DNA of 5,125 bases, taken from Actinomycetota bacterium. Lineage in GTDB: Bacteria > Actinomycetota > Thermoleophilia > Gaiellales > Gaiellaceae. How positions within the stretch are numbered: the stretch's first letter is position 1; the number at the start of each line of letters is the position of its first letter. Below, piece by piece: positions 1 to 5,125 of the stretch. The stretch spans positions 1 to 5,125 of the forward strand of contig VGCB01000247.1 in the NCBI GenBank assembly GCA_016870235.1, read 5' to 3'. The notes beneath the pieces were generated by a model. It had not been told where the DNA came from, made no database searches, and saw nothing but the letters and a program-made list of their open reading frames with translations. The translations under genes were made by a program, and so were the position numbers.

Positions 1-520
1 ATCCAGGGCCTTCTGTCGCCATCCCCCCCGTCGTCGCGGGACGGTTCGGGAATTCCGGGAACCGGCCCTTGTGCGTCGTGCACGCCCAGACACCGCCGCT
101 CTCCTCGATCGTGACCTTCCCCGGCTCGACCTCCGCCAGGATCTCCGCGATTCTTTCCACTCCGCGCCTCGTGCCGCGCCCCTGGTGGAGATGCACGGCC
201 TCGGCGACGAGCTTGCGTCTGAGCTCCGACTCCCACTTCTCGTTGAGCTCGAGCCCGACCCAGCCTGCGATCCAGTCGAGGAAGTCCTCGGGCGCGTACT
301 TCGGGTCGAAGTAGGCCGGCAGGTTGTCGAGCGTATGAAACACGGGCGAGAGCACGGCATCGAGGGCGGTGGTGAACCGCTGCAGGAAGCTCTCCTCCCG
401 ATCGCCGACGCGGTAGGCCGCGGGCAGGTCCGGCTCGCGGTAGAGCCCCGGCAAGGCCTCCCAGAGCGGTGCCGGAGATGCGAGCTCGCCGTCGGTGAAA
501 GGTCTCGAGGCGGCTGCCAT
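1..520 (-). CDS. Contractile-tail protein, P2 gpI-like (TIGR02242-type), 3' end outside window
   Basis: The reverse strand from 520 reads open to the window edge, about 173 residues, and the C-terminus lies beyond position 1. The N-terminal part has the family pattern: LPGLYREPD, then a segment ending FHTLDNLPAYFDPKYAPEDF, then LDWIAGWVGLELNEKW, then RGTRRGVERIAEILAEVEPG. This is the layout I know from the TIGR02242 phage tail domain related to P2 protein I, a baseplate or tail-tip component of contractile tails and extracellular injection systems. Two ATGs lie in tandem (523 and 520). I chose 520 because the GGAGG core then sits 5 bases upstream rather than 2. The stop of the upstream baseplate gene overlaps these codons, so the two are translationally coupled. 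The antisense strand also has long open frames, but they have no family resemblance. Family assignment is strong; exact role (phage, tailocin or eCIS) cannot be decided here. Confidence 0.85.
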   Translation of the reverse strand, partial: MAAASRPFTDGELASPAPLWEALPGLYREPDLPAAYRVGDREESFLQRFTTALDAVLSPVFHTLDNLPAYFDPKYAPEDFLDWIAGWVGLELNEKWESELRRKLVAEAVHLHQGRGTRRGVERIAEILAEVEPGKVTIEESGGVWACTTHKGRFPEFPNRPATTGGMATEGPG

Positions 521-523
521 CAT

Positions 524-530
524 CTCCTCC
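524..530 (-). promoter_or_regulatory. Ribosome binding site of the gpI-like tail gene
   Basis: The reverse strand reads GGAGGAG directly before the tandem ATGATG. The GGAGG core is 2 bases from the first ATG and 5 from the second, which favours the second start. It lies inside the last codons of the baseplate gene. Confidence 0.6.
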
Positions 531-1370
531 CCACCTGAACGTAGTGCCGGTAGGAGAAGACCGTCGCGTACTGTGACACCTCGACTCTGTCGAGGCCCTT
601 TGCCTCTTCCCCAGGCTTCCCTCCGGAGCGGTCACCGGCACCGGGTCGGCCATGAACAGTCGGCAGTCCTCGACCTCATCAACGCCGCGTACCGACTGCA
701 GGAATGCATGCGCATCCGCCTTGAGGACGTCTCTGCCGAACTCCCACCCCTTCCCGTCCCGACCGCCCGAGATCGGGCTGAACGCCCTGTAGAGCTCGTC
801 GAGGGCACGCTGTGCGACGTCCTTGGTATCGAACTCGGGCAGCGCCACCAGCTTCGCCACGATCGTGATGCCTTGGTACGTCGGCGGTCGGACGAGAACA
901 CGGGCTCCGATCACCCGCCGCTCGTCGAGTCGCGTCTTGATCCTGTCGACCAACTCCTTCCGCGGCGCCAGCTGCTCGAAGCGGATCCTTCCCCGGTCGC
1001 TCTCGACCTTCGGGACGACGAGCACGTGGGCTTCGCCCGCTCGGGCCTCGTCTTCCTCCGTCGCAGGGATGCATGTGACGCGGGCGAGCTCGGGAGCCAC
1101 CTCGCGGGCGAGCTGCTCGTAGTCCTCAGGGGTCACTGCGCGGTCTCGGGTGCGCAATGTGATCGGCCCGCGAACCTTCGCGTCCGCGATGTCCTCGCTG
1201 TCGGCGCCGCCCGAGGCACCCCTCCGGTTCTCGACCGATGCGACGCTCGCGATCGGCGAGCGCATCACCCTGAGGATCCCGTCGGAGACGTTCCCTCGTT
1301 CACCGCCACCGGCCAGGTACTTGCGCAGCCGTAGCTCGGCGCCTTTCGGCGGGACGAGGCCATACTGGCG

Positions 1371-1374
1371 GATC
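1371..1374. other. GATC join between baseplate and kinase fragments
   Basis: To the left, reverse-strand homology to the baseplate protein begins at the codons for T-I-R-Q-Y-G, whose ACG ATC contains this GATC. To the right, forward-strand kinase sequence begins (D-R-R-A-V-P-G and onward). Both genes are cut off at the same point, head to head, and neither has a start codon. This is one of five such joins in the window at GATC. Confidence 0.6.
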
Positions 1375-2108
1375 GTCGGGCGGTTCCCGGGAGAGAGCCC
1401 GGGCTCTCGGAGCGCGATATCTCGAGGCGAACCCGGCTCGAGCGCGCCGAACGCGAGTTCGTCACGAACGCCGCCCACGAGCTCCGTACCCCCGTCGCCG
1501 CAATCGCCGCCGCCGCGGAGGTGCTCGAAAGCGGCGCCAAGGACGAGCCCGACGCACGAGACGCGTTCATCGCCGACATCCACCACCAGGCAACCCGCCT
1601 GACCAAGCTCACCCAAGCGCTCCTGACGCTGGCCAGGGCACAGCACGACGACCAGCCGCTCGCGCTCGAGCCGATCGTCATCCGACCGCTCCTCGAGCAG
1701 ATAGCAGCCGACCTCGACGTTTCCGCCACGGTCACGGTCGGCGTCGACTGCGCTGTCGACCTCGCCGTTCTCGGCGAACGCACGCTGTTCGACGCCGCAC
1801 TCTTCAACGTCGCCGCCAACGCCGCCCGGCACACACCGCACGGCACGATCGGAATCAGCGCCAGGCCCGACGGTCCACGAGCCGTGACCGTCGAGATCGC
1901 CGACACCGGCTCTGGGATGGGCGCCGAGGAGCAAGCGCGCGCCTTCGACCGCTTCTACCGATCCGGGAGGCCCAGCACGGCGGGCGGGTTCGGACTCGGG
2001 CTCGCCATCGTCCGTGCGGCGGTCGAAGCGCTCGGCGGCTCCGTCGATCTCGCCTCCGAGCCCTCGATCGGAACGACCGTCCGCATGAGCTTCCCCGCCG
2101 CCCGATGA
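1371..2108 (+). CDS. Sensor histidine kinase, C-terminal fragment (HisKA and HATPase_c)
   Basis: About 245 residues are readable from the join. The phosphoacceptor H-box is [16 protein letters not shown] with the histidine at fragment residue 36 (codon 1476-1478). The ATPase domain has an N-box ([16 protein letters not shown], catalytic Asn codon 1818), a G1 box (DTGSGMG, from 1902), an F-box region (AFDRFYRSG) and a G2 box ([10 protein letters not shown], from 1983), and ends normally at TGA 2106-2108. The membrane sensor, HAMP and start codon of a typical kinase are missing, because the reading frame runs back across the join to a stop at 1332-1334 with no credible start. The first usable start, GTG at 1521, would exclude the phosphorylated histidine, so a product from it could not act as a normal kinase. 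The gene overlaps the downstream response regulator by four bases, so the pair is translationally coupled, and kinase-first order is the less common arrangement. In the intact gene it would autophosphorylate and pass phosphate to that regulator. The signal is unknown. Confidence 0.9.
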
Positions 2109-2788
2109 AAGGGCGGATCCTCGTCATCGAAGACGAGCCAGCGATCCGCCGGCCGATCGTCTACGCGCTCCAGCGAGAAGGGTTCGAGGTCAGCGAAGCC
2201 CCCGACGGCGAAACCGCACTCGGGCTCGAAACGACCTTCGACCTCGTCGTCCTCGACCTTATGCTCCCGGGCATGTCCGGCTTCGACGTGCTCGACGCCC
2301 TCCGCCGCTCCGGACCCGCCCGCGTCCTCATCCTCACCGCCCGCGACTCCGAGATCGACCGCGTCGTCGGTCTCGAGTGCGGCGCCGACGACTACATCGT
2401 GAAGCCCTTCTCGGTCGCCGAGCTCGTCAGCCGCGTCCGGGCCCAACTACGCCGCCGCGACCTCGACCGCGACAGCCCGGGACAGATCATCACCGCCGCC
2501 GGAATCACGCTCGACCTCTCCAAACAGACCGCATCCGTCGACGGAACGCCCGTCAACCTCACGCCATCCGAGTTCAAGCTCCTCACCCTCCTCTCAGACG
2601 CCCCGGGCACCGTCCGGACCCGCCACGAGATCATGCGGCACCTCTGGCAGAGCGACCACCTCGGCAACGAGCGAACTAGCGAAACGCACATCGCGAACGT
2701 CCGCAAGAAGCTCGACCGTGCGGCCGGGGCCGGCCACCGGATCGTCACCGTCCGCGGCAGCGGATACCGGCTCGCAACCGACACCTGA
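2105..2788 (+). CDS. OmpR/PhoB-family response regulator, intact
   Basis: The 227-residue product has a receiver domain (about 4-115) and an OmpR-type winged-helix DNA-binding domain (about 128-225). Visible receiver residues are the acidic pocket E9-D10, phosphoacceptor D51 in [13 protein letters not shown], switch T78 in LILTARDS, and K100 in DDYIVKPFS. The effector domain has [12 protein letters not shown], then [12 protein letters not shown], then [17 protein letters not shown] (recognition helix) and the C-terminal hairpin [13 protein letters not shown]. Length is typical of the family. The ATG overlaps the kinase stop as ATGA and there is no good ribosome binding site, so translation probably depends on the kinase reading through. 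It should act in the cytoplasm as a transcription factor activated by the cognate kinase. Its targets cannot be inferred, and the usual neighbours are obscured by the join at 1371. It converges on the usp gene with 61 bases between the stops. Confidence 0.96.
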
Positions 2789-2849
2789 GCCCGTCCACCG
2801 AGCGATAGCGGGCAAGACCAGCCGCTCCGCCGCCGATCGCGCCGGCCCC

Positions 2850-3665
2850 TCAGATTCCCGGTTGCTCGGCACCCAGCGGCATGTCACTACCCGGGTGGAC
2901 GACGAGGACGGACGAGTGCGCGCGATGCGCGACCCGTTCGCTAACGCTGCCAAGCGACCGCACCCCATGCAGGCCACGCGAGCCGACAACGACGAGATCC
3001 ACCAGTCTGGATCGGTCGCAGAGCGCGTCCACAGGTGGCCGCGGGTCCCACTCGGTCACACGGTCGTCCCAGGTGCCTTCCTCGCTGATCGTCTTGCCAC
3101 CCTTCGCTGCGACCACGGTCAGCTCCGACCCAAGGCGGCCGCGAAGCTCGTCCGCGACCGTGAGCGCCACCTGCGACCACGCCGATCCGTCCATGCCCAC
3201 GACCACTCGGTCGGGACGCCACCGCTGTCCCCACTGGGGTCGAGCAAGCAGCACCGAGTAGGTCGCGTCGTGCAGCAGCATGCTCGCGGTCTCGCCGAGC
3301 AGCGCGCCGACGAACCGGCTGCGCCGTCTGCCCCCAAGCGCGAGCAGCGTCGGCGCAAACGCTTCGATCTCGTGCCGAAGCACGGTCTGGGCTGTCCCGC
3401 GGACGAGCCGCGCGGACGCGTTCGCTCGATCGGCGAGGATCTCCGCCACCTTCTCCCGCGCCTGCTCAGCGTCACGCTCAAGCATCTCGGCAAACCGCTT
3501 CGAGTCCCACCCCGTCTGCACGACCCCGGTCAGATCGAGCGCCGTCACCGTCTGCACGACGCTGGCAGACGGTGCCAGCGCGAGCGCCTGCTGCAGCGCC
3601 TCGAAACCGTAGTCGGTGCCGTCCACCCCGACCAGCACCCGATCGAAGATCTCCTGCGCACTCAC
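2850..3665 (-). CDS. Universal stress protein, tandem UspA domains
   Basis: The 271-residue product has two UspA folds. Domain 1 (about 7-142) opens with RVLVGVDGTDYG, with the nucleotide-contacting Asp at 15, and closes with TYSVLLARP. Domain 2 (about 152-256) opens with RVVVGMDGSAWS (Asp 159) and carries VVVGSRGLHGVRSLGSVSER at 226-245, then SSVLVVHP. The ATP-loop motif of domain 2 (G-x2-G, a spacer, then G-S) is recognisable, with a spacer of 7 rather than the textbook 9. In domain 1 the equivalent GGRRRSRFVGALLGETA keeps the later glycines but lacks the G-x2-G pair, so domain 2 is the better candidate for ATP binding. Start is GTG at 3665, chosen because GGAGGAGG lies 5 bases upstream and the first beta strand begins directly afterwards. 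Tandem Usp proteins of this size are common in actinomycetes and are linked to stress and dormancy, but their molecular role is generally unresolved. No operon partner is evident. Confidence 0.96.
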   Translation of the reverse strand: MSAQEIFDRVLVGVDGTDYGFEALQQALALAPSASVVQTVTALDLTGVVQTGWDSKRFAEMLERDAEQAREKVAEILADRANASARLVRGTAQTVLRHEIEAFAPTLLALGGRRRSRFVGALLGETASMLLHDATYSVLLARPQWGQRWRPDRVVVGMDGSAWSQVALTVADELRGRLGSELTVVAAKGGKTISEEGTWDDRVTEWDPRPPVDALCDRSRLVDLVVVGSRGLHGVRSLGSVSERVAHRAHSSVLVVHPGSDMPLGAEQPGI

Positions 3666-3950
3666 GTCGACCTCCTCCGCGAATCACCGACGGTCGCCGG
3701 TACACCGAACGTCCCCGAAGGTCTCTCCCACCCGTCACCGGCAGGCGCCCCGGGCAATCAGCCGAGATGACGAAGCGCCTGAGTCGGGGTACTCCCCTTC
3801 ACCCACACCGTACCCGACTCGACCGTCCCACCGCGGGCACGCACCCCGATCCACCGTCGGTACAAACCCACACGGTCGCCCGCCGTCGTGCTCCTCTGCT
3901 GGTCGCGATGCGGCTCGCGGATACGACCGGGCTCGCCCAGCCACCAGGCC
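3666..3950. other. Unassigned stretch upstream of the usp gene
   Basis: No recognised gene. The proximal part, 3666-3757, should hold the usp promoter. Two weak coding readings compete for the rest. On the reverse strand a frame ending at TGA 3760-3758 has mostly G/C third positions and reads LYRRWIGVRARGGTVESGTV, then WVKGSTPTQALRHLG. It could be the C-terminus of an unrecognised gene 92 bases upstream of usp in the same direction. On the forward strand a frame from GATC 3848 reads APLLVAMRLADTTGLAQ and then PAGHNQ, which faintly recalls the helicase segment that should precede the relaxase piece, but it would need several small indels to connect. I cannot choose between them. Confidence 0.4.
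3671..3678 (-). promoter_or_regulatory. Ribosome binding site of the universal stress gene
   Basis: The reverse strand carries GGAGGAGG 5 bases before the GTG at 3665. The strong match and good spacing decide the start codon. I see no convincing promoter in the 90 bases upstream. Confidence 0.7.
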
Positions 3951-4231
3951 CGGCAGGACACAACCAGCGTCGGAGAGGAGGCGCTCGGCCTCTTCGCCGC
4001 CATCGTCGACCGGTACGGCGCGGTCGAGCTGACCGAGAACCGCCGCCAACACGACCCGCTCGAACGCCATGTCCTGCAACGCCTGCGCGACGGCGGCGGC
4101 CGCGAGTACCTCGCCCACGCGCAGCGAACCGAGCGTCTCGTCGAGGCAGACGATCCGATGGCAACGCTGCTCAGTTGCTCGCCGACTGGTGGCAGCACGC
4201 CAAGATCAACCCCGCCGACAACGTCATGATC
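3950..4231 (+). pseudogene. MobF/TraA-type relaxase-helicase fragment, frameshifted
   Basis: The piece reads SVGEEALGLFAAIVDRYG, then AVELTENRRQHDPLERHVLQ, then RLRDGGGREYLAHAQRTERL and VEADDPMA. A shift of one base near 4160 is then needed to continue as AAQLLADWWQHAKINPADNV and MIA. This is the RecD-like helicase domain of MobF conjugative relaxases: the LFAA...ELTENRRQ stretch follows motif III, and ADWW...VMIA leads to the usual LRRADV. The intact protein nicks and unwinds plasmid or ICE DNA for transfer; here neither the relaxase domain nor the Walker A region is present. The shift looks like one missing base (ATG GC_ AAC GCT). The left limit is uncertain by tens of bases, and the right limit is the GATC at 4228-4231, where the forward frame turns into unrelated residues. 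Certain as a remnant, not functional as written. Confidence 0.75.
4228..4231. other. GATC join between two opposed relaxase pieces
   Basis: Forward relaxase homology ends at V-M-I-A (ATG ATC GC) and reverse-strand homology to a later part of the same domain ends here too. Family members continue V-M-I-A-L-R-R; here the next residues are G-W-C-G-R and a stop. Confidence 0.55.
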
Positions 4232-4303
4232 GCTGGGTGGTGTGGCCGGTGAGCGCGTAGGCGTGACGCACATGGCCGGCGTCGACGTAGGCGGCGGGCA
4301 GCG

Positions 4304-4311
4304 TGATCGGC
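4304..4311 (+). repeat. 8-bp inverted repeat flanking the nucleotidyltransferase, left copy
   Basis: TGATCGGC here is matched by its reverse complement GCCGATCA at 4785-4792. The two copies bracket the nucleotidyltransferase piece almost exactly at its homology limits, and both lie across a GATC join. Confidence 0.6.
4305..4308. other. GATC join between inverted relaxase piece and nucleotidyltransferase
   Basis: The reverse-strand relaxase codons for I-T-L-P start in this GATC, and the forward nucleotidyltransferase frame runs from it as D-R-L-A-L-M-A-R-R-R. The homologies change strand at this point. Confidence 0.5.
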
Positions 4312-4791
4312 TCGCGCTGATGGCACGACGGCGGGCTGCCGCACCGGTGTTTGATCCGCGGGCGCTGATCGCGACCCTGGAACGGCATCGCGTCGACTAC
4401 GTCGTGATCGGCGCCCTCGCCCGTGTTCTGCATGGCAGCGCGGAGACGACCGACGAGCTCGACATCTCCCCGTCGACGAAGGAGCGGAATCTGCAGCGGC
4501 TCGAGAAGGCGCTTGCCGAGCTCGCCCCCGACACCGGCGTTGATGCCGACCGGCTCTCCGCTCCTTCAGAGCCTGTGCTTCGGGTCGAGACCGTTCATGG
4601 GAAGCTCGCGATCGTGCCCGAGCCGGCCGGCACCCGTGGTTACGACGACTCAAACGCACCGCCGGGTGCGAGCACCTCGGCCAAGGGGTTGCGCCCGCAG
4701 GTCGCCTCGACCGCGGATCTCGGCAGGATGTTGAACACGTTGCGCCGCGACGGCGATCTCGAGAACCTCCGCGCCCTGCGCCGCGCCGATC
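4305..4791 (+). CDS. Nucleotidyltransferase-fold protein, partner of an XRE regulator, truncated
   Basis: From ATG 4320 the frame gives about 156 residues before homology ends at the GATC 4788-4791; the frame then runs on to a stop just past 4943 through antisense HTH sequence. The N-terminal half resembles the AbiEii/MNT-like nucleotidyltransferase fold: PVFDPRALIATLERHRVDYV, then VIGALARVLHGS (residues 29-40), then TTDELDISPS (43-52). A later strand pair KLAIVPEPAGTRGYDD (95-110) and a C-terminal VASTADLGRMLNTLRRDGDL helix complete the pattern. The usual acidic pair D-x-D appears as E46-L-D48, so the first metal ligand is Glu. No ribosome binding site precedes ATG 4320. In relatives I remember, this domain follows an XRE domain in the same protein or operon, so the ATG may be an internal methionine. 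Such pairs resemble toxin-antitoxin or abortive-infection modules, but activity here is untested and the Glu makes it doubtful. Frame is uninterrupted. Confidence 0.65.
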
Positions 4792-4792
4792 A
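4785..4792 (-). repeat. 8-bp inverted repeat flanking the nucleotidyltransferase, right copy
   Basis: GCCGATCA is the reverse complement of the copy at 4304-4311 and contains the GATC at 4788-4791, where forward nucleotidyltransferase homology ends and reverse HTH homology ends. Eight bases is short, and half of them are the GATC. Confidence 0.6.
4788..4791. other. GATC join between nucleotidyltransferase and HTH pieces
   Basis: Forward homology ends at N-L-R-A-L-R-R-A-D and reverse homology ends at A-C-G-F-D, the two Asp codons sharing this GATC on opposite strands. Confidence 0.55.
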
Positions 4793-4939
4793 AACCCGCA
4801 CGCCTGCACCAGCTCGACCAACGTGTCCACCGACGGCGCCACCAACCCCTGCTCCCAACGGGCGACGACGGTGCGGTCGCGACCGGACTTCTCCGCCAAC
4901 TCCGCCTGCGTCAACCCCGCCCGCAACCGCGCCTCACGA

Positions 4940-5125
4940 ATGATCCGCGACGGGAAGAGCTACATGGTCCGTTACCGGCGAGGCGGCCGTGGCTACCGGC
5001 TCGAACACGCAGGCACGTTCAGACGGCTCGATCACGCGAGGGAACGCGCGAGACTCACTGGCGGCTGGCTCGCGCTCAGCCTCGATCCGCGCCAGGAGCT
5101 CGCGAAGGTCGCCACGGAGGAACGA
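4940..5125 (+). CDS. Tyrosine recombinase/phage integrase, N-terminal part, runs off the right edge
   Basis: Sixty-two codons are open to the window edge. They read DGKSYMVRYRRGGRGYRLEH, then AGTFRRLDHARERARLTGGW and LALSLDPRQELAKVATEER. The Y-M-V-R-Y-R-R-G-G...AGTF...A..R..L..G.LA...DP sequence is the N-terminal arm-binding type domain of actinomycete phage/ICE integrases, preceding the core-binding and catalytic domains that would lie beyond 5125. The intact enzyme would integrate and excise the mobile element. ATG 4940 is in frame but overlaps the GATC join and has no ribosome binding site, so the true N-terminus may be missing. Codon use resembles the rest of the window. Without the catalytic R-H-R-Y residues in view the family call rests on the N-terminal pattern only. 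Confidence 0.65.
   Translation, partial: MIRDGKSYMVRYRRGGRGYRLEHAGTFRRLDHARERARLTGGWLALSLDPRQELAKVATEER
4942..4945. other. GATC join between HTH and integrase pieces
   Basis: Reverse-strand HTH homology begins R-I-I-R-E-A with the ATC inside this GATC, and forward integrase homology begins I-R-D-G-K-S-Y from the same bases. The strands switch here. Confidence 0.5.

Follow-up and report, generated by a model that had tools for sequence, protein, structure and literature searches.

Chimeras from Sau3AI cloning have sticky-end joins that retain one GATC. End filling in Hi-C doubles the overhang (PMC8530316), and meta3C assembles contigs straight from proximity-ligation libraries made without end filling and with no enrichment step, with DpnII used for the yeast library; only 0.7% of the contigs from its bacterial mix were chimeric, and religation was concluded to add little background (PMC4381813). 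MDA chimeras are mostly inverted (406 of 475), 337 of the inverted ones at less than 10 kb (PMC1855051). 

The window (the whole 5,125-nucleotide stretch analysed, contig VGCB01000247.1 of an Actinomycetota bacterium) is probably a ligation chimera made by a GATC cutter and rejoining of sticky ends. The structure is most likely an artefact made in the test tube, and the unusual order of its genes should not be taken for biology. The preliminary description had proposed a ligation or cloning chimera, and this reading is supported by right-hand homology limits at GATC, joins with a single GATC, and pieces that are natural neighbours in relatives.

Composition of the contig

Piece 1 (1..1374, minus strand) contains tail and baseplate genes of a contractile injection system or phage-like tail (Pfam, NCBIfam), including Tail_P2_I (2-517, minus strand; Pfam) and baseplate assembly protein TIGR02243 (about 639-1373, minus strand; NCBIfam). 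It has a frame change between 639 and 612 and is truncated upstream near the GATC at 1371; baseplate searches gave matches at 16 genome loci, in 61 of 301 genomes, and in 13 phage and 52 plasmid records. Piece 2 (1416..2785, plus strand) encodes a histidine kinase with an unmatched N-terminus and a response regulator (Pfam, kinase relatives), and is followed by a universal stress protein gene (2853..3683, minus strand; Pfam) with two weak matches in the 11 genomes searched. A 16-base palindrome at 1390-1405 was spotted by eye.

To the right of a break at 3957..3987 is piece A (piece 3; 3987..4231, plus strand), a RecD-like helicase module (Pfam, NCBIfam, relatives) of a type that occurs in MobF/TraA-type relaxases and related helicases, with a single frameshift near 4162-4168. 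Piece B (piece 4; 4228..4308, minus strand) is inverted and corresponds to a region further along the same type of helicase gene. Plasmid protein searches with the helicase pieces gave weak MobF matches for A alone (best E about 0.02). A short imperfect direct repeat finishes at the GATC of 4228, and an inverted arm lies at 4302-4316.

Piece 5 (4320..4787, plus strand) is a gene that we take, from its motif, to have a nucleotidyltransferase-like fold; its C-terminus is truncated at the GATC at 4788 and there are frameshifts near 4651 and 4688. It had no protein family match, a PDB search gave no relative of this family, and viral contigs contained no confirmed relatives of this or the baseplate piece. 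Piece 6 (4788..4945, minus strand) is an inverted XRE-type HTH domain (Pfam), with no ATG, GTG or TTG from the in-frame stop to the homology; PADLOC matches are confined to this part.

Piece 7 (4946..5125) has no family assigned, and the name integrase given to it earlier was not confirmed: Pfam Arm-DNA-bind_3 falls below the cut-off (E 0.016), and PHROGs and NCBIfam gave nothing useful. It matched 20 phage and 2 plasmid records with E values of 2 to 9 among the matches listed, had no match in two Streptomyces plasmids, and, among 301 genomes, matched 7, none with an E value below 7.5e-4; internal stops interrupt the best three of these.

Homology limits and GATC sites

The window has 52 GATC sites (1 per 98.6 bases) against 34.8 expected from dinucleotides, and none of 200 shuffles reaches 52, an enrichment that counts against a chimera. 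Sites stand at 1371, 4228, 4305, 4788 and 4942, as the preliminary description had it, and its related observations hold: pieces 4228-4308 and 4788-4945 have no internal GATC and each amount to one GATC fragment (sites 77 and 154 bases apart), the nucleotidyltransferase-like piece has six internal sites, and the joins keep a single GATC with no fill-in, GATCGATC being absent from the whole window.

Homology limits were placed by a strict frameshift-tolerant alignment with part of the relatives used for each piece, and by a loose alignment with up to 12 relatives per piece, whose modal limits were used for the GATC test. With 60 artificial joins as a control the same aligner was at most 3 bases off in 35 and at most 6 in 41 (median +1), and missed by more than 6 bases, up to 90, in 19, which makes any single limit less certain than the modal values suggest.

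At join 2, between helicase A and inverted helicase B (GATC 4228..4231; limits 4234 and 4233), piece A spans 3987-4234 in all six strict alignments and ends at 4234 in 6 of 12 loose ones (4267 in five, 4300 in one), while the low limit of B is 4233 in 8 of 12 (others 4198-4201). At join 3, between helicase B and the nucleotidyltransferase-like piece (GATC 4305..4308), the high limit of B is 4307 in 6 of 12, with five at 4313-4325 and one at 4381; the left side of piece 5 adjoins the gene's own start and so is unusable as a homology limit. Piece 5 ends at 4793 in all four strict and 10 of 12 loose alignments (others 4790 and 4784), and the low limit of the HTH is 4789 in 3 of 3, these being the limits at join 4 with the inverted HTH (GATC 4788..4791). 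At join 5, between the HTH and piece 7 (GATC 4942..4945), the high HTH limit is 4944 in two of three relatives, the third starting later. One side of the join was measured at both 4305 and 4942.

Each of the six modal limits to the right of 4200 is at most 3 bases away from a GATC, and no other 4-mer of the 256 achieves this. The chance of a limit falling this close is 0.10 each, or about 1e-4 for four joins; when the set of six was slid along the window it succeeded at 5 of 4380 positions, at shifts of -4 to 0. The earlier claim of five limits on GATC stands, at 0-3 bases, on both sides of 4228 and 4788, on the helicase side of 4305 and on the HTH side of 4942, but at 1371 it stands for the baseplate side in the strict alignment only and was not confirmed on the kinase side.

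At this first join, between baseplate and kinase (GATC 1371..1374), the baseplate ends at 1373 in four and 1376 in two of six strict alignments; all 12 loose alignments extend beyond 1371, reaching 1376-1508, and when more sequence is supplied the match to the baseplate profile begins at about 1382-1388. The kinase starts at 1416 in 3 of 6 strict (others 1404, 1380 and 1350) and 4 of 10 loose alignments (others 1311-1404). Support for a GATC break at 1371 is weak, and comparison with relatives bears out GATC as the limit on the right-hand side of the contig but not on the kinase side here.

The prediction that every break in the contig lies at GATC failed at the kinase limit, 42 bases from the site, and at the left edge of piece A, which the preliminary description had set apart and which is more than 100 bases from the nearest site; these two breaks may have arisen in some other way. 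The contig starts with ATCC and finishes with ACGA, and both ends could be remnants of incomplete GATC words. Composition was rejected as a cause of the joins, with GC steady at 66-71%, as were repeats, the short imperfect matches at two joins being taken as chance.

Neighbourhood of the pieces in relatives

In 37 of 43 relatives A and B are parts of one kind of gene, in order and 73-83 residues apart, and they are probably two parts of one helicase gene; their closest relatives are not the same, so a single gene copy is not proven. At 10 of 12 loci an HTH precedes the nucleotidyltransferase-like gene on its strand, 134-212 bases upstream, and HTH fusions account for three among 120 listed relatives. 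The shuffled pieces are natural neighbours in relatives, an observation new to this analysis.

A strand change had been described for every join, and it holds at all four whose two sides have an assigned strand (at 4942 only the HTH side has one). Free sticky-end joining predicts four such changes with a chance of 1/16, which counts against a chimera. A single protein across joins 3 and 4 (P0121, already a database cluster) is listed on three contigs. Exact words of the window are absent from viral contigs; a plasmid DNA search with 3700-5125 gave nothing, and one with 1800-3600 matched 289 records, with at most 14% of the query covered in the five matches listed.

Origin of the arrangement

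In the proposed mechanism, DNA would have been cut by a GATC-recognising enzyme of the DpnII, MboI or Sau3AI type, and four-base sticky ends rejoined so as to keep one GATC per join. Fragments close together in the original genome would have been ligated out of order and in the wrong orientation: two segments that probably come from a single helicase gene, and the HTH with the nucleotidyltransferase-like gene downstream. Such contigs would result when reads from proximity ligation with unfilled ends (3C, meta3C or Pore-C type) are assembled. In the genomes of relatives, used here for the comparison, the joined pieces are close together. We infer both the cutting in the laboratory and the type of library. 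The small proportion of chimeric contigs in the meta3C bacterial mix (PMC4381813) counts against a proximity-ligation chimera.

It is unlikely that fragments of a partial GATC digest were co-ligated at random in a Sau3AI-insert cloning library, with repeated deposition of one clone or dataset. Such co-ligation would leave joins with a single GATC and possibly partial GATC words at the contig ends, and repeat deposition would account for the listing of a single sequence on three contigs, but random joining of complex DNA should not reunite parts of the same gene kind or neighbouring genes. Since the pairs rejoined in inverted orientation are natural close neighbours in relatives, ligation of neighbouring fragments (3C or Pore-C type) is favoured over it.

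Strand switching at short shared words during MDA, giving inverted neighbours and a deletion, is improbable. The four joins of known strand do switch, and two reunite near neighbours in inverted orientation across a gap, which is the most frequent MDA form (PMC1855051); however, instead of varied short shared words a single word stands at the six modal limits, and MDA gives no reason for GATC, the sole fitting 4-mer, every time. We give just as little credence to real DNA formed by in-cell breakage at GATC, end joining and subsequent gene decay. The same chimeric protein on three contigs counts for it and against an artefact, and would mean real DNA if the samples are independent; there are also frame changes in three pieces, but these equally fit sequencing error, four or five joins would have to fall on one four-base site within 5 kb, and the searches run here turned up no relative with this gene order. 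Also improbable is that the three contigs are independent and the rearrangement real, with a GATC-specific nuclease of the bacterium or a mobile element, and end joining, having shuffled and inverted the fragments.

The ligation chimera is thus the preferred reading, and the GATC-joined arrangement is most likely no real biological feature. Predicted proteins of such contigs can be spurious fusions, of which P0121 would be an example, and homology limits compared with a restriction word, together with natural neighbourhood in relatives, offer a simple screen.

The contig resembles the MDA chimeras of PMC1855051 in its inverted near neighbours and intervening deletion but differs from them in that its right-hand joins are all at one restriction word. 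Like Sau3AI cloning chimeras its joins retain one GATC, although it contains neighbouring pieces that are unexpected there. Unlike proximity-ligation junctions (3C, meta3C or Pore-C type) it has one non-GATC break, inversion at all joins of known strand and a listing on three contigs, but it shares with them the single GATC, near neighbours out of order, and short single fragments.

Gene content of the window

Tail and baseplate genes transcribed leftwards come first in the window, followed by a rightwards-transcribed histidine kinase (its N-terminus without a match) and its response regulator, a leftwards universal stress protein gene, a rightwards RecD-like helicase piece (A; 3987–4231), a second, leftwards helicase piece (B; 4228–4308), a rightwards nucleotidyltransferase-like gene (4320–4787), a leftwards XRE-type HTH (4788–4945), and a final stretch given no family name. 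The window is probably an entire contig, since 5125 bases is the longest contig listed for two of its own proteins, P0001 and P0121. The preliminary description's 'relaxase' label is weakly supported, with AAA_30 and TraA_Ti matches below their own cut-offs and weak MobF plasmid hits; the precomputed domain column lists AAA_30 in 42 of 43 helicase relatives, two of which name Gaiellaceae as their source. The name nucleotidyltransferase, which we take from a motif, applies to a protein for which Pfam, NCBIfam, PHROGs and PDB searches returned no family name.

Strict frameshift-tolerant alignment places frameshifts near 4162–4168, 4651 and 4688, but none within 639–1373 or in the kinase. The baseplate reading frame also shifts between 639 and 612. 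These fit either low-coverage long-read sequence or gene decay.

Homology limits and GATC

Relatives were aligned to the window DNA with a frameshift-tolerant local aligner in loose and strict settings. Strict alignment ends the baseplate homology at 1373 (4/6 relatives) or 1376 (2/6), begins the kinase at 1416 (3/6; otherwise 1404, 1380 and 1350), places helicase A at 3987–4234 in all six relatives aligned (taken from 43), and ends the nucleotidyltransferase-like gene at 4793 (4/4). The loose setting limits helicase B at 4233 (8/12) and 4307 (6/12), and the HTH at 4789 (3/3) and 4944 (2/3). However, loose alignments also carry the baseplate beyond 1371 in 12/12 relatives (1376–1508), helicase A to 4267 in 5/12 and 4300 in 1/12, and helicase B down to 4198–4201 in 4/12 and up to 4313–4381 in 6/12. 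Given more sequence, the match to the baseplate profile TIGR02243 begins near 1382–1388. On 60 artificial joins of intact baseplate genes, likely more alike mutually than the window pieces are to their own relatives, the strict aligner erred by ≤3 bases in 35 and ≤6 bases in 41, with errors up to 90 bases in the remainder. A perfect 16-base palindrome, GAGAGCCCGGGCTCTC, lies at 1390–1405 between the baseplate and kinase limits.

The six modal limits right of 4200 are 3, 2, 0, 2, 0 and 0 bases from a GATC, with a 0.10 chance that a random window base is ≤3 bases away. GATC is the only 4-mer of 256 with all six limits this close, and when the six are slid together along the window the fit holds at 5 of 4380 positions, with shifts from 0 to −4. 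The proposal that breakpoints fall on GATC mostly holds at the right-hand joins and is weak at 1371. The rule is incomplete, because 1416 and 3957–3987 sit 42 and >100 bases from GATC; the 3957–3987 break may be of different origin from the GATC joins. Helicase A begins abruptly there. The contig itself starts with ATCC and ends with ACGA, each possibly a partial GATC word, as if these were GATC ends too.

Arrangement of the pieces in relatives

Helicase A precedes B on one strand in relatives, with 73–83 residues between them in 37/43 and 93–112 in 5/43; one (P0277) lacks a proper B match. The window has B immediately after A in reverse orientation. The relative closest to A is P0243 (65% over residues 11–93 of the piece), and P0248 and P0254 are closest to B (84%); a single source gene for A and B is likely.

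A profile search of 301 genomes from the phylum to which G001 belongs (G001 carries locus L001 and bears the title Chloroflexi bacterium) matched the nucleotidyltransferase-like gene in 31. In 10 of 12 fetched loci a window-like HTH sits immediately upstream in the same orientation, 134–212 bases separating the two matches; at E 1e-3 no HTH is matched in L042 or L049, and L047 has an additional match on the opposite strand. The nucleotidyltransferase-like parts at these loci are 28–40% identical to the queries used. Both domains occur within one protein in P0145, P0194 and P0222, three among 120 listed relatives, longer fusions being outside the search's length range. The window HTH follows the nucleotidyltransferase-like gene, inverted, with both limits at GATC, and no start codon was found ahead of its homology. 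The pair of HTH and small nucleotidyltransferase-like protein (window 4320–4945; loci L039–L050) is fused or adjacent in relatives, and our guess is that it may form a toxin-antitoxin-like unit.

Origin of the joins

Cutting of DNA at GATC and sticky-end rejoining of neighbouring fragments accounts for the right-hand limits, the single GATC at joins, the two short pieces that are single fragments, and the natural neighbourhood, all supporting the ligation chimera preferred in the preliminary description; the window structure is most likely an artefact. Strand changes at 4/4 joins of known strand, expected once in 16 under free ligation, speak against the ligation chimera. MDA yields inverted joins between neighbours (PMC1855051), but leaves GATC at the joins unaccounted for. 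P0121, a database protein spanning the joins at 4305 and 4788 (window 4272–4943), is a fusion product of the chimera; one sequence is listed on three contigs. This would follow if a single dataset had been assembled redundantly; were the samples independent, the artefact reading would fall.

Among known procedures, meta3C assembles contigs directly from a proximity-ligation library, and that study (PMC4381813) gives DpnII for the yeast and HpaII for the bacterial library. In its bacterial mix 0.7% of contigs were chimeric; chimeric religation is named as one possible source but concluded to add little background. Hi-C joins made with end filling carry a doubled overhang (PMC8530316).
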